Shown here one piece after another: positions 12,178-15,993 of a stretch of 64,000 nt of DNA. The notes beneath the pieces were generated by a model. It had not been told where the DNA came from and did no database searches. It saw nothing but the letters and a program-made list of their open reading frames with translations. The position numbers and the translations under genes were made by a program. This DNA comes from Veillonella sp. VA142 (GTDB taxonomy: Bacteria > Bacillota > Negativicutes > Veillonellales > Veillonellaceae): NCBI RefSeq assembly GCF_003992135.1, contig NZ_RQVN01000009.1, positions 1 to 64,000 on the forward strand, given 5' to 3'. Position 1 is the stretch's first letter. Each line of letters opens with the position of its first letter.

Positions 12178-13050
12178 CTATTTGAACTCGTTGCAAAGAG
12201 CTGCAAACATCTCTGCATCTGGTTTCACCACGTCATGTATTAATGCACGAGCATGTGGACCACCGTTAGCAGCATATAACGCTTGTTCAAAGGATGGTTT
12301 TGTTGTATCTTGGTAAATCAAACCTGTTACAAGACCATTTGTTTCACCTAGTGTAGCAAATGCTTGTGCACGATTTGTTGGATCATAACCTTCTGGCAAA
12401 TTCACCAAATTATCTTTGAAGTAATCATAGCCATTTTGTTTATTATACGTTACACAAGGGCTGAATACGTTGATGAAAGAGAATCCTTCATGTTGCATAC
12501 CTTGTTTGATTAAATCCACTAATTGTGCACGGTTTACCATGTAACTTTGCGCTACAAAAGTAGCACCAGAAGCGATGGCTGTTTCACAGATTGGCAATGG
12601 ACTTTCAAAAGAACCATGAGGAGATGTTTTTGTCACAAATCCCACGTCAGAACGAGGAGATGTTTGGCCTTTTGTCAAACCATATACATGGTTATCCATA
12701 ACCACATAGGTAATATTTACATTACGTTTGAAAGCATGAATCGTATGGCCCATACCGATCGCGAAGGCATCACCATCACCACCGCAAACCACAACGTTCA
12801 TATCTTCATTCGCCAATTTCACACCTTGTGCATACGGAAGTGCACGACCATGTGTAGTATGCGCACCATAGGCATAGAAGTAACCACCGATACGGCTAGA
12901 GCAACCGATACCAGAGATAACAGCCAATTTTTCAGGCGCAATATCAAGAGCTGCTACTGCATCAGCAATAGCTGCTTGTACCCCGTAATGACCACAACCT
13001 GGACACCAGTTAGGGCGGATATCATTTCTATATTCATTTGCTGTTGCCAT
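12178..13050 (-). CDS. korB: 2-oxoacid:ferredoxin oxidoreductase, beta subunit
   Basis: The 290-residue subunit holds the thiamine diphosphate site: GDGDAFAIG (about 91) followed by the conserved asparagine in VVMDNHVYG. NWCPGCGHYG near residue 15 and GIGCSSRIGGYF near 50 supply conserved cysteines for a [4Fe-4S] cluster. Together with the alpha subunit it oxidises a 2-oxoacid, most likely 2-oxoglutarate, to the acyl-CoA while reducing ferredoxin; the exact substrate cannot be fixed from sequence. The start overlaps the alpha-subunit stop (TAATG), so translation is coupled. Confidence 0.88.
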   Translation of the reverse strand: MATANEYRNDIRPNWCPGCGHYGVQAAIADAVAALDIAPEKLAVISGIGCSSRIGGYFYAYGAHTTHGRALPYAQGVKLANEDMNVVVCGGDGDAFAIGMGHTIHAFKRNVNITYVVMDNHVYGLTKGQTSPRSDVGFVTKTSPHGSFESPLPICETAIASGATFVAQSYMVNRAQLVDLIKQGMQHEGFSFINVFSPCVTYNKQNGYDYFKDNLVNLPEGYDPTNRAQAFATLGETNGLVTGLIYQDTTKPSFEQALYAANGGPHARALIHDVVKPDAEMFAALCNEFK

Positions 13051-14801
13051 TATAAAACCTCCTTAATTGCCGCTTTTACATAAGATGTTGTAAATGGATT
13101 ACCATCGTATTTTAAGCAACTAGAAAGTTTTTCTTTATTCGGCATATGAATGCGGAACAAGTTAGTTAATTGACCTGTCGCATTTTGCTCGCAGATCACA
13201 ACCTTTTTAGCACTATTATAGAATGGTAGCAATTGTTCTTTCGGGAATGGTTTAATCAAACGAAGTTGTAAATGGTTCACTTTGTGACCTTCTGCCTCCA
13301 ATTCCACTACTGCTTCTTCAATAGCACCACGGCTAGAGTTAATACCGATCACAAGAACATCTGCTTCCTCATGTTTTGCATTGTTCAAGAATGGTTCATA
13401 TACATCCGCTACTGTAGATAATTTACGGAAACGTTTGTCTGTTTGTGCCACGTGCATAGAAGGTGCTTCTGCTGGTTTACCTTCTTCGTTATGCTCTAGA
13501 CCTGTAGACAAGAATAATCCGTTTTTCATACCTGGTATGGTACGAGGGGAAATACCGCTTTCAGTCAATTCAAAACGTTTGAAGTATTTAGGATTTTCCA
13601 ATGCGGGTAAATCTTCTTCTTTCATCAAATTACCACGTTCGATACCAACACGGTTCAAATCAAATGTTGGTACAGATTGTTTATTCAAGCCTTGTTGCAA
13701 ATCAGGCATAAAAATAACTGGACATTGGTATTGTTCCGCCAAGTTGAAAGCATGTTGAATTTCGTAGAAACATTCTTCAATACTTGTTGGAGCAATAACG
13801 ATATTGGAATAATCGCCATGCGCATTATAGCAAGCTGCATCGATATCGGATGTTTCCACTTTTGTAGCCATACCTGTAGATGGGCCAGAACGTTGTACAT
13901 CGATGATTAGCATTGGCAATTCAGCCATAGATGCCATAGATAAAGACTCAGCCATCAAGCTCAAGCCAGGGCCAGATGTACATGTGAAGCCACGAACACC
14001 AGCGTATACGCCACCCATAGCCATCATACATGCAGCAATTTCATCTTCTGTTTGTACCACAGTAGCACCAATTTTATCCATTTTCTTAATCATGTATTCC
14101 ATCACTTCAGATGCTGGAGTAATCGGATAGGATGCCATGAAACGAGAACCTGCTGCAATGGCACCCAATGCTAATGCTTCATTACCAAGCAAGAACATTT
14201 GATCTTTTGGCTCTGGTTTATCTAATGTATCTACTTCTACATCGCCCAATTGTTCTTTTACAAGTTGATAGCCCAATTGGAATGCTTGTAAGTTTTTGTT
14301 AATAATATCTTCAGATTTTTTCGCAAAACGAGCTTTAATAGCTGTTAAGAACAACTCTGTTTCAAAGCCTAATAAGGCAACGGACATGCCCAATGCCACG
14401 ATATTACGCATCAACAAGGAGCCTTGTTGTAATGCTGTTTCGGAAATTGGTAATGCTAAGCATGTTACACCAGTACCTGTGAAAGCTTCAAAATTAGGAT
14501 TTACTTTGCTATCACAAATAATAAAGCCGCCATCGCGCACTTCTTTACCGTGCATATCTACAGTTTCTTGGTCAAGTGCTACCAAGAAGTCGATATGCTC
14601 GCCGACTGTCATAATTTGTTCTAATGCGATACGTAATGCAAATGTTGTGTGACCACCTTTGATACGAGATGCAAACAAACGTTGGCTGTACAAGGAATAA
14701 CCTTCTTTGGCAAGAATAGTAGCTAAAATTTCGCCACAACTTTCAATACCTTCACCTTGCTGACCGCCCATTTTCCAGATAAAATCTTTACGTTTTTGCA
14801 A
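13050..14801 (-). CDS. korA: 2-oxoacid:ferredoxin oxidoreductase, fused gamma-alpha subunit
   Basis: The roughly 583-residue protein fuses a gamma domain (GGQQGEGIESCGEILATI, then RIKGGHTTF near residue 50) to the alpha pyrimidine-binding domain (about 205 onward, YPITPASEVMEYM). This is the KorA layout. A TTG codon at 14801 is nine bases after GGAGG and is preferred; the alternative GTG at 14810 directly abuts the site and would add three residues. Regulation may involve the FNR-type box at 14865-14878 and the structured RNA just upstream. It works with the beta subunit in ferredoxin-linked carbon metabolism. Confidence 0.87.
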   Translation of the reverse strand: MQKRKDFIWKMGGQQGEGIESCGEILATILAKEGYSLYSQRLFASRIKGGHTTFALRIALEQIMTVGEHIDFLVALDQETVDMHGKEVRDGGFIICDSKVNPNFEAFTGTGVTCLALPISETALQQGSLLMRNIVALGMSVALLGFETELFLTAIKARFAKKSEDIINKNLQAFQLGYQLVKEQLGDVEVDTLDKPEPKDQMFLLGNEALALGAIAAGSRFMASYPITPASEVMEYMIKKMDKIGATVVQTEDEIAACMMAMGGVYAGVRGFTCTSGPGLSLMAESLSMASMAELPMLIIDVQRSGPSTGMATKVETSDIDAACYNAHGDYSNIVIAPTSIEECFYEIQHAFNLAEQYQCPVIFMPDLQQGLNKQSVPTFDLNRVGIERGNLMKEEDLPALENPKYFKRFELTESGISPRTIPGMKNGLFLSTGLEHNEEGKPAEAPSMHVAQTDKRFRKLSTVADVYEPFLNNAKHEEADVLVIGINSSRGAIEEAVVELEAEGHKVNHLQLRLIKPFPKEQLLPFYNSAKKVVICEQNATGQLTNLFRIHMPNKEKLSSCLKYDGNPFTTSYVKAAIKEVL

Positions 14802-14864
14802 GAGATTCACCCTCCTTAGGATTGTAATATAGGACCACAGAAAGACTGTATTTATTCAGTGTTT

Positions 14865-14878: not shown

Positions 14879-14927
14879 TCTCTCAAAGTTCACCTCTTAT
14901 AATAGCATTTTTAGTATATTTCATCAA

Positions 14928-15162
14928 TAAAAAATACAAAAACCTCGGCCAAGAGAATAAAGCCGAGGTTTTTGTATTTGAGAAAAAAGAGAGAGAACAT
15001 TTGAAATAGATTCAAATGTTTTGTTGGGGCAATGGGGGGCGCCCCATCGGTAAAAGTAGGGTCTTTTACCTGGGAAGGTATAAGATGAACCCTTCCCTAT
15101 TGTAAGTTAGGTAGATAAAGAGAGAGATCTTTATCCAGCAAAGGTAGTGTGAACCCTTTGCT
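14928..15162 (-). ncRNA. Structured RNA of six tandem hairpins plus terminator
   Basis: On the minus strand a promoter (TTTACT, 17 bp, extended TGcTATAAT with hexamer 15174-15169) points into six consecutive hairpins. Arms: 15138-15144/15155-15161, 15114-15120/15129-15135, 15072-15078/15091-15097, 15049-15056/15063-15070, 15026-15030/15041-15045, 14996-15005/15011-15020. An intrinsic terminator follows at 14938-14973. RNA loops are pyrimidine-rich (ACCCUA, CCCCCC, AUCUCUCU, GUUCA twice). There is no open reading frame of note. It may be a trans-acting RNA binding purine-rich ribosome sites, a protein-sequestering RNA, or an attenuating leader for kor. I do not recognise a known family. Confidence 0.7.
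14938..14973 (-). terminator. Terminator of the six-hairpin RNA
   Basis: AAAACCTCGGC and GCCGAGGTTTT arms form a perfect stem, followed on the minus strand by TTTTTGTATTTTTT. Confidence 0.85.
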
Positions 15163-15297
15163 TGAGTTATTATAGCAAATGATTGTGTAAAAGTAAACAC
15201 ATGAATTCATAAATTCCTAGCTTTTTTATATATTTTTTATATATAACACTATAAATTATTAGCATCACAACCTATGAATCCGTCTACTACTAGGTTT
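15163..15297. other. Intergenic promoter region between structured RNA and GntR gene
   Basis: This AT-rich stretch holds the minus-strand promoter of the six-hairpin RNA (-35 TTTACT near 15192-15197, -10 at 15174-15169). Nothing else was recognised. Confidence 0.6.
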
Positions 15298-15993
15298 TTA
15301 CTTTTCTTTCTGTTTTGCCAACAGCTCTGCATGGGCCTTTTTAAATACAAATGCATTGCGAACATGCGCCCGCATCCGTTCTTCTGCTAATTGCCCATTA
15401 CGCTCATGGATTGCTTCCATAATTTGTTGATGTTCTAAATCACAAGAAATGGTACGCGTTTTATCTGACGTACTAATATACATATCACGGTTCACCATCT
15501 CTCGAAAATCTGCTAAATAATCTGCCACACGATCATTACCAGAAAATTCCGCAATCAATGTGTGAAAGCGACTATTAATGGCTACCCGCTCCTCTGGATT
15601 TTCCGTATGAATTCCTGCATCGCACACTTCTTGTAATTCTGATAACTGCTCCTCTGTGCATCGTTCTGCACAAAGTCTAGCACCCAAGCCTTCCATTACT
15701 TCGCGACATTGATACATGGCTACAATCTCCTCCGGAGAGTAGCCTTTCACCGTAACGCCTTTCCACGGTTTAATCACTACAAGATTATCTTTTGCCAGTT
15801 TACGAAATGCTTCCCGTACTGGTGTGGCGCTCACATTTAATTGTTCTGCAATACGCACTTCACTTAATTTCACTTTTGGCTTTAAAGACCCCGTTAAAAT
15901 AGCTTGCTTTAACGACATATATACTTGCTCGCTCAGCGGCAGTCGTCCAATTGAGTCAATACTATGTAAACGATACTCTTCCGTCTTATCCAT
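15298..15993 (-). CDS. GntR-family regulator, FadR/FCD type
   Basis: The 231-residue protein has an N-terminal winged helix-turn-helix (about 18-85: PLSEQVYMSLKQAILTG, then VSATPVREAFRKLA) and a C-terminal all-helical FCD ligand domain (about 95-220) with histidines that normally bind a metal and a carboxylate ligand (SRFHTLIAEFSG, LEHQQIMEAI). Such regulators respond to organic acids. It lies next to the kor operon and the structured RNA, but its target is not evident. It runs on the same strand. Confidence 0.87.
   Translation of the reverse strand: MDKTEEYRLHSIDSIGRLPLSEQVYMSLKQAILTGSLKPKVKLSEVRIAEQLNVSATPVREAFRKLAKDNLVVIKPWKGVTVKGYSPEEIVAMYQCREVMEGLGARLCAERCTEEQLSELQEVCDAGIHTENPEERVAINSRFHTLIAEFSGNDRVADYLADFREMVNRDMYISTSDKTRTISCDLEHQQIMEAIHERNGQLAEERMRAHVRNAFVFKKAHAELLAKQKEK

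Follow-up and report, generated by a model that had tools for sequence, protein, structure and literature searches.

A structured small RNA candidate with a constant CU tract in Veillonella sp. VA142 and related Veillonellaceae

Several small RNAs (sRNAs) of Firmicutes, such as IsrR, LhrC, FsrA and RoxS, are described as directing exposed C-rich regions at purine-rich ribosome-binding sites (PMC9410917, PMC4132741, PMC8216469). For Veillonella, the authors of the ilvD motif WRC-18-2 leave a role as sRNA open (PMC8632094), and no earlier description of a trans-acting sRNA in Veillonella or other Negativicutes was found in the open-licence literature searched. Here we analyse a minus-strand element of Veillonella sp. 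VA142 located in the first 64,000 nucleotides (nt) of contig NZ_RQVN01000009.1 (assembly GCF_003992135.1), the stretch called the window below. The element lies between a gene for a GntR-type regulator and the kor genes (2-oxoacid:acceptor oxidoreductase) and very likely makes a discrete, non-coding structured RNA of a new sRNA family. The family would be new, with a likely working principle that is already known.

Architecture and conservation of the RNA locus

The initial annotation, made from the letters of the window, had read in this interval a promoter, six consecutive hairpins with perfect arms and an intrinsic terminator, and all of them are present (Table 1). The fold predicted for 14928-15162(-) consists of hairpins with stems of 8, 9, 7, 8, 7 and 10 base pairs (bp) followed by a terminator stem of 19 bp, with an energy of -89.5 kcal/mol compared to -42.0 (standard deviation 3.8) for shuffled sequences (z -12.5; none of 200 shuffles equal). 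The loops that had been named, GUUCA twice, AUCUCUCU, ACCCUA and CCCCCC, are also found. The opposite strand folds beyond chance as well (z -7.9), as expected from inverted repeats. The terminator call rests on the stem and its U-rich 3' side; an automated scan that accepts loops of 3-8 bases listed no terminator at the RNA 3' end, where the loop has 10 bases. Taken alone the promoter hit says little, since the scan gives three promoter-like sites in a region of 701 bases for 2.4 expected. Its evidential value comes from conservation of the layout among homologues: TTTAC, a spacer of 17 or 18 and TATAAT or TATACT are found in 16 out of 16. An inverted repeat around TTTGCAT...ATGCAAA, possibly a regulator site, is seen upstream of the -35 in most of g4 (L008, L010-L014; genus defined below).

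The RNA was searched at the DNA level in 28 Veillonellaceae genomes of four genera, g1 (the window's genus, 6 genomes), g2 (1), g3 (14) and g4 (the genus of V. ratti, V. seminalis and V. intestinalis, 7). Near full-length copies occur in all six g1 genomes and partial matches in the three further genera. At E up to 0.1, 23 of the 28 genomes have a match, 16 of them at 6e-13 or better, and the own genome has no second copy at E 0.001. Within g1, identity to the five other genomes is 92-99% over the RNA, 56-82% over the upstream spacer and 14-32% over the 150 nt downstream. A covariance model was derived from an alignment of 14 of the 16 carriers, two near-duplicates being omitted. Run with stricter filters over 380 genomes of the class, it returns the 16 carriers at 102.8-134.4 bits (6/6 in g1, 1/1 in g2, 2/14 in g3, 7/7 in g4). 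The remaining 21 of the 37 genomes passing E 0.01 reach at most 41.5 bits; the combination of C-loop hairpin and CU tract is absent from the 14 of their loci inspected by eye, and the non-carrier loci L056 and L049 show C/U-rich stretches ahead of a terminator-like hairpin.

Relatives outside g1 are about 140 nt long and start with a single 5' hairpin of different sequence, followed by the same C-loop hairpin (hairpin 5), AACATTTGAAT hairpin (hairpin 6), CU tract and terminator. As judged from these sequences, the conserved core is made of the C-loop hairpin, the AACATTTGAAT hairpin, the unpaired UCUCUCUCUUUUUUCUCAA tract and the covarying terminator, and three of the 5' hairpins are additions of the window's genus. 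The most constant part of the RNA is the CU tract (14996-14978), identical in all 14 aligned sequences except for one extra CU (CT in DNA) in nine; it is retained where the 5' hairpins change from one genus to another. A scan for the exact tract in genomes of 84,980 species gave 25 stretches. Nine lie in other organisms, two are antisense to the ilvA/ilvB leaders of V. ratti and V. seminalis, and 14 are the small RNA (13 checked via the flanking hairpin; that of VA139 is cut at the locus edge). These 14 belong to Veillonella sp. VA137, VA139, CHU740, 3310, 3891, R32 and KGMB01456, to V. magna, V. ratti, V. seminalis, V. intestinalis and V. montpellierensis, and to two uncultured Negativicutes.

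A three-helix structure was scored on the alignment (372 cells) against 500 shuffles. Pairing is found in 98.4% of the cells and falls below 50% when the partner is slid. Two-sided pair changes amount to 7 compared to 3.5 in shuffles (2 of 500 as high) and the covariation score is 0.183 compared to 0.109 (reached by none of 500), with no excess of further pair types (14 compared to 13.9). The refuting condition named at the outset, a lack of compensatory changes, has an intermediate outcome. Such changes are present, the terminator accounting for six of the seven pairs and hairpin 6 for the seventh, but the four hairpins that precede the core show none, variation within g1 being too low for testing. 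Two pairs of the C-loop stem are open in one sequence, probably by a shifted alignment of L017, and the 5' hairpin of g4 shows one G-C to A-U exchange by eye.

No reading frame of at least 8 codons is common to the genera (11 of the 16 carriers), in agreement with the first assessment of the element as non-coding. Individual coding candidates were rejected. Hairpin 2 is overlapped by a TTG frame of 14 codons that all six g1 genomes share, their DNA being near-invariant there, and that is absent elsewhere; an ATG frame over hairpin 5 exists in 2 of the 6; the difference of 2 nt in tract length shifts the frames that start from the ATG in hairpin 6. The Rfam covariance-model search suggested at the outset (4227 families) gave no match at gathering score in the 64 kb window. 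None of the 45 matches with E up to 10 reaches gathering, and they lie mostly over the terminator. Among them FsrA (RF02273) scores 26.1 bits for a gathering score of 80, over hairpin 6, tract and terminator, and RsaE/RoxS (RF01820) 21.8 bits for 79. Conservation, the promoter layout of the 16 homologues and partial covariation speak for the discrete structured RNA without Rfam match that had been proposed.

Table 1. Features of the RNA locus and its surroundings in the window
Feature	Coordinates	Strand	Remarks
Small RNA promoter	15169..15197	-	TTTACT (15197-15192), spacer 17, TATAAT (15174-15169); extended -10 with TG ahead; 10/12 consensus bases
Small RNA	14932..15162	-	~231-235 nt; putative 5' end ~7-12 nt past the -10; transcription predicted
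Hairpin 1	15137..15162	-	8 bp, GUUCA in loop; in g1 only
Hairpin 2	15113..15136	-	9 bp, loop inside AUCUCUCU; stem and loop unchanged in 6 g1 genomes, first base pair position excepted
Hairpin 3	15072..15097	-	7 bp, second GUUCA loop; altered in 2/6 g1 genomes
Hairpin 4	15049..15070	-	8 bp, GACCCUA region in loop; in other genera, a single hairpin of different sequence in its place
Hairpin 5	15025..15046	-	GGGGC/GCCCC stem, CCCCCC loop (15039-15034); conserved in four genera
Hairpin 6	14996..15020	-	AACAUUUGAAU stem; sequence near-invariant across four genera
CU tract UCUCUCUCUUUUUUCUCAA	14978..14996	-	Unpaired by prediction, between hairpin 6 and terminator; proposed target-binding segment
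Intrinsic terminator	14932..14979	-	19-bp stem, U-rich end; two-sided changes in six pairs
kor promoter-like site	14899..14927	-	TTGATG, spacer 17, TATTAT; 9/12 bases; past the RNA terminator
kor, 2-oxoacid:acceptor oxidoreductase alpha subunit	13050..14810	-	Neighbour, outside the RNA
GntR-type regulator gene	15298..15993	-	Upstream of the RNA

Pairing with purine-rich leaders

What is established at this locus is its sequence, promoter layout, predicted fold, conservation, synteny and independence from kor. For its function we favour a trans-acting sRNA of the C/U-rich pairing type of Firmicutes, acting without Hfq, which we consider likely. The RNA would be transcribed from its own vegetative-type promoter to its own terminator. 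Its hairpins would expose C/U-rich segments, namely the CCCCCC loop of hairpin 5 and the UCUCUCUCUUUUUUCUCAA tract, joined in the window's genus by the additional loops AUCUCUCU and ACCCUA. These segments may pair with purine-rich leaders of messenger RNAs (mRNAs) and in this way block ribosome entry or alter mRNA stability, Hfq being dispensable. A single Hfq model had no match in the 28 family genomes; as a control, it was run on 14 named genomes and matched 5, among them E. coli and B. subtilis. Among the three roles imagined at first for the RNA (binding of purine-rich ribosome sites, titration of a protein, attenuation of kor), the first is the best supported, albeit with a fit to own-genome ribosome-binding regions no better than that of reversed or shuffled letters.

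Not counting the RNA itself, the seven g4 genomes contain 38 exact matches to the complement of the tract, TTGAGNNANNAGAGAG (G021 3, G022 5, G023 2, G024 8, G025 8, G026 7, G027 5), compared to one across the nine other carriers (G005) and none in twelve non-carriers; the backwards motif has one exact match in 15 genomes. Of the 38 sites, 29 are ahead of leucine, isoleucine/valine, methionine or tryptophan genes, and five are in stand-alone GA-rich RNA candidates. By gene, the sites are ahead of leuA (14; three fall within what may be a longer leuA frame and were counted as leader), metA (7), ilvB (3), trpE (3, at 473 to 562 nt upstream) and metQ (1), in a relative of the GA-rich RNA leading into a metE-like gene (1), inside an aroA-like gene named by eye (3) and at a YeiH-like transporter gene (1). 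One protein each was checked with NCBIfam for LeuA, IlvB, IlvA, MetA, MetQ, TrpE, the MetE-like and the YeiH-like products, several scoring below the curated cut-off. The 38 sites are not independent, g4 genomes being related and some leaders containing more than one site. The metA leader of G022 is complementary to the RNA over as much as 19 nt without interruption; for the leuA leader of G024 the figure is 20 nt, one G-U pair included. Rfam models run on 19 loci recognise T-boxes ahead of leuA in five, own genome included, and a SAM riboswitch ahead of metQ. In g4, the leaders of these leucine, isoleucine/valine, methionine and tryptophan genes are candidate targets by their complementarity.

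The g4 leaders of leuA, metA, ilvB/ilvA and trpE carry UUGAGNNANNAGAGAG blocks, often repeated and some with GGUGAGAG hairpins (L186, L189-L191, L299-L302, L305, L161, L152, L293, L294); in leuA these blocks follow the T-boxes where T-boxes are found.

These g4 leaders could plausibly, though less likely than not, be bound by something else, such as a GAG-binding protein or an unrelated riboswitch-like element, their complementarity to the RNA being a by-product of purine-rich leaders. Consistent with this are the repeated hairpins that the leaders own, with GGUGAGAG loops and the imperfectly pairing form UUGAGNGAGNAGAGAG, the lack of the motif in most other RNA carriers and the occurrence of GGGG close to GA blocks in either direction (of 36 blocks, 9 have it downstream and 6 upstream). 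The match nevertheless exceeds purines, with UUGAG opposite the CUCAA end of the tract; GAGAGAGAACAUUU of the ilvA/ilvB leaders complements AAAUGUUCUCUCUC, hairpin arm included; and the motif is missing from all twelve genomes without the RNA. The downstream GGGG, counted at 12 nt or less from the GA block, exceeds chance (9 of 36 compared to 2.5 for random windows, none of 2000 as high), but was set aside as a signal, being post hoc and, with 6 of 36 upstream, showing too little direction.

In the own genome, pairing was evaluated on 382 genes sampled from the window and a further 400 kb. The tract prefers ribosome-binding regions (mean -8.96) to coding interiors (-5.96), a preference attributable to composition because its reversed and shuffled versions match or exceed it. 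A search for the tract complement with three mismatches gives 9 places including the RNA itself, five of them in coding sequence by eye, and the others at C6:82714, about 380 nt upstream of a frame, C12:39540 and C2:10174. The last one (L323:280) is the only leader candidate observed in the own genome. It lies 58 nt ahead of a 45-codon frame whose product is unknown, has a 16-nt match to the RNA with one G-U (AGAAGAGAGAGAACAU/GGGGACATAGAAGAGAGAGAACATG) and is found in three genomes of the genus (L321-L323).

Several of the results weigh against the proposed pairing function. Reversed and shuffled tracts score -9.00 and -9.76 at own-genome ribosome-binding regions, equal to or better than the tract, and the C loop has no preference for these regions (p 0.42; same 382 genes). 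The own-genome leuA and ilvB leaders lack the tract-complement motif, as do eight of the nine carriers outside g4. With one mismatch allowed, six g4 genomes have 75 matches (6 being the RNA itself) compared to 44 for the backwards motif, a modest excess, and seven other carriers 36 compared to 46. Since the motif is restricted to one genus and the tract is constant in four, the g4 leaders cannot be what maintains the tract elsewhere. Many of their motifs have the form UUGAGNGAGNAGAGAG, whose fit to the RNA includes a mismatch as well as G-U pairs and which may be maintained for a different reason. Paired as a whole with 17 leader regions, the RNA beats all 200 shuffles in 4 and fails to in 13, these duplex energies being mostly uninformative because internal structure is ignored. 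Finally, the C-loop stem shows no compensatory change.

The stand-alone GA-rich RNA candidate of g4 is found at L297:500-800 (+) and in L295, L296 and L298 (-), with an own conserved -10. A terminator-like hairpin is present in each of these four copies, and three of them have repeated hairpins with GGGGUGAGAGCC-like (GGUGAGAG) loops. No same-strand frame of at least 90 codons lies within 600 nt in three of the four; in L298 such a frame is at 462 nt, past the terminator. A fifth copy, at a contig end of G026, rests on pattern and weak DNA similarity, and in L306 a relative of the GA-rich RNA leads into a metE-like gene. Energies of its duplex with the small RNA are not clearly beyond shuffles (z -0.6 to -1.8), and no convincing GA-rich partner was found in the six genomes of the window's genus, which gave one weak match (E 0.0075). 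By analogy with RosA, the GA-rich RNA may bind the small RNA as a sponge.

A broader proposal, possible and clearly more tentative than pairing as such, would make the small RNA the hub of an RNA-only amino-acid circuit with a GA-rich sponge in Hfq-free, double-membraned Firmicutes. The pairing partners of the CU tract and the C loop would be the GA-rich leaders that precede leucine, isoleucine/valine, methionine and tryptophan genes, the leuA leader behind its T-box and the metQ leader behind its SAM switch, and pairing would open hairpin 6 via strand exchange. The stand-alone GA-rich hairpin RNA would be the sponge, and in the window's genus the RNA would have gained further loops for another target set.

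CsrA requires GGA in loops, and RNAs of the CsrB/RsmY type carry repeated GGA motifs in loops. By analogy with CsrB-type RNAs, and with another motif, the hairpins and CU tract could instead hold several copies of an RNA-binding protein that the RNA titrates or for which it is a scaffold. The repetition of hairpins with similar loops (GUUCA twice) would suit such a role, as would hairpin 6, conserved past the need for pairing with 8 of 10 pairs that never vary. It is rendered unlikely by the absence of three hairpins in other genera, where one C loop, a variable 5' hairpin and the tract remain, and by the location of the only two GGA triplets in the RNA, at positions 27 and 67, within stems, unlike the loops used by CsrA.

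Relation to the neighbouring genes

The GntR gene is upstream of the RNA on the same strand in all 16 carriers (by coordinates), and in 10 of 11 loci a divergent lipid-kinase frame precedes it, L017 having an overlapping frame instead. The gene 3' of the RNA varies: kor in four g1 loci, an S-layer-like frame in g2, crcB-like and regulator frames in g3, and another kind of gene in g4. Apart from kor, GntR and lipid kinase, these names were assigned by eye. The constant position directly behind GntR would fit a GntR mRNA 3' end, processed or a mere terminator region. We regard this as improbable given the own promoter layout of the 16 homologues and the situation in g3, where the 12 genomes without the RNA retain the GntR gene. 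No relative of the RNA is found behind GntR in the 11 readable ones (L077, L079-L087, L089; L088 was unparsed), which keep GntR and the genes after it and have by eye a different, simple terminator behind GntR.

Because it stays downstream of GntR while the next gene differs between genera, the RNA looks like a separate gene, independent of kor. A role in cis for the kor operon, as leader or attenuator, was also envisaged by the initial annotation and might be suggested by the position of the RNA upstream of kor on the same strand in four genomes of the genus. Such a role is highly improbable: the RNA terminator is followed by a separate kor promoter-like site and by poorly conserved sequence (14-32%), in three other genera different genes come next, and no Rfam leader, T-box or other, is matched. 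A perfect inverted repeat, TTGATGTGTATCAA (14878-14865, minus strand), lies past the kor promoter-like site and ahead of the kor alpha gene; we take it to resemble FNR/CRP-type operators.

Comparison with known systems

Kept in place across four genera with a near-fixed, proposed pairing tract, and with a set of leaders open to testing in one genus, the RNA would offer a way to study how these bacteria, common in mouth and gut, exert post-transcriptional control. With hairpins gained in one genus and the gene missing from most of another (g3), it would also provide a natural comparison for target change in sRNAs.

WRC-18-2 likewise is an RNA element of Veillonella linked to a gene for branched-chain amino acids, and differs in being a leader of ilvD (PMC8632094); the two are set side by side by description, not by sequence. 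Bacillus FsrA and RoxS/RsaE resemble the Veillonella RNA by C-rich regions facing G-rich partners (PMC8216469). They differ from it by Rfam scores far under gathering and by the lack of a convincing GA-rich partner in the window's genus. RosA is presented as a stand-alone G-rich sponge, of which the g4 GA-rich RNA would be the counterpart (PMC8216469). LhrC of Listeria shares action at ribosome-binding sites, stem opening upon binding and dispensability of Hfq; it is multicopy with UCCC motifs, whereas the Veillonella RNA is single-copy with a tract without UCCC (PMC4132741). The staphylococcal IsrR has no Rfam or sequence link to the Veillonella RNA, which adds a CU-repeat tract to the C run and for which the Fur control and iron-enzyme targets of IsrR are not seen (PMC9410917). 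The likeness lies in the architecture: IsrR too is independent, with several hairpins and a terminator, C-rich unpaired segments in loops and beside a stem, and two stems conserved in sequence with little covariation, and it acts on purine-rich leaders (PMC9410917).
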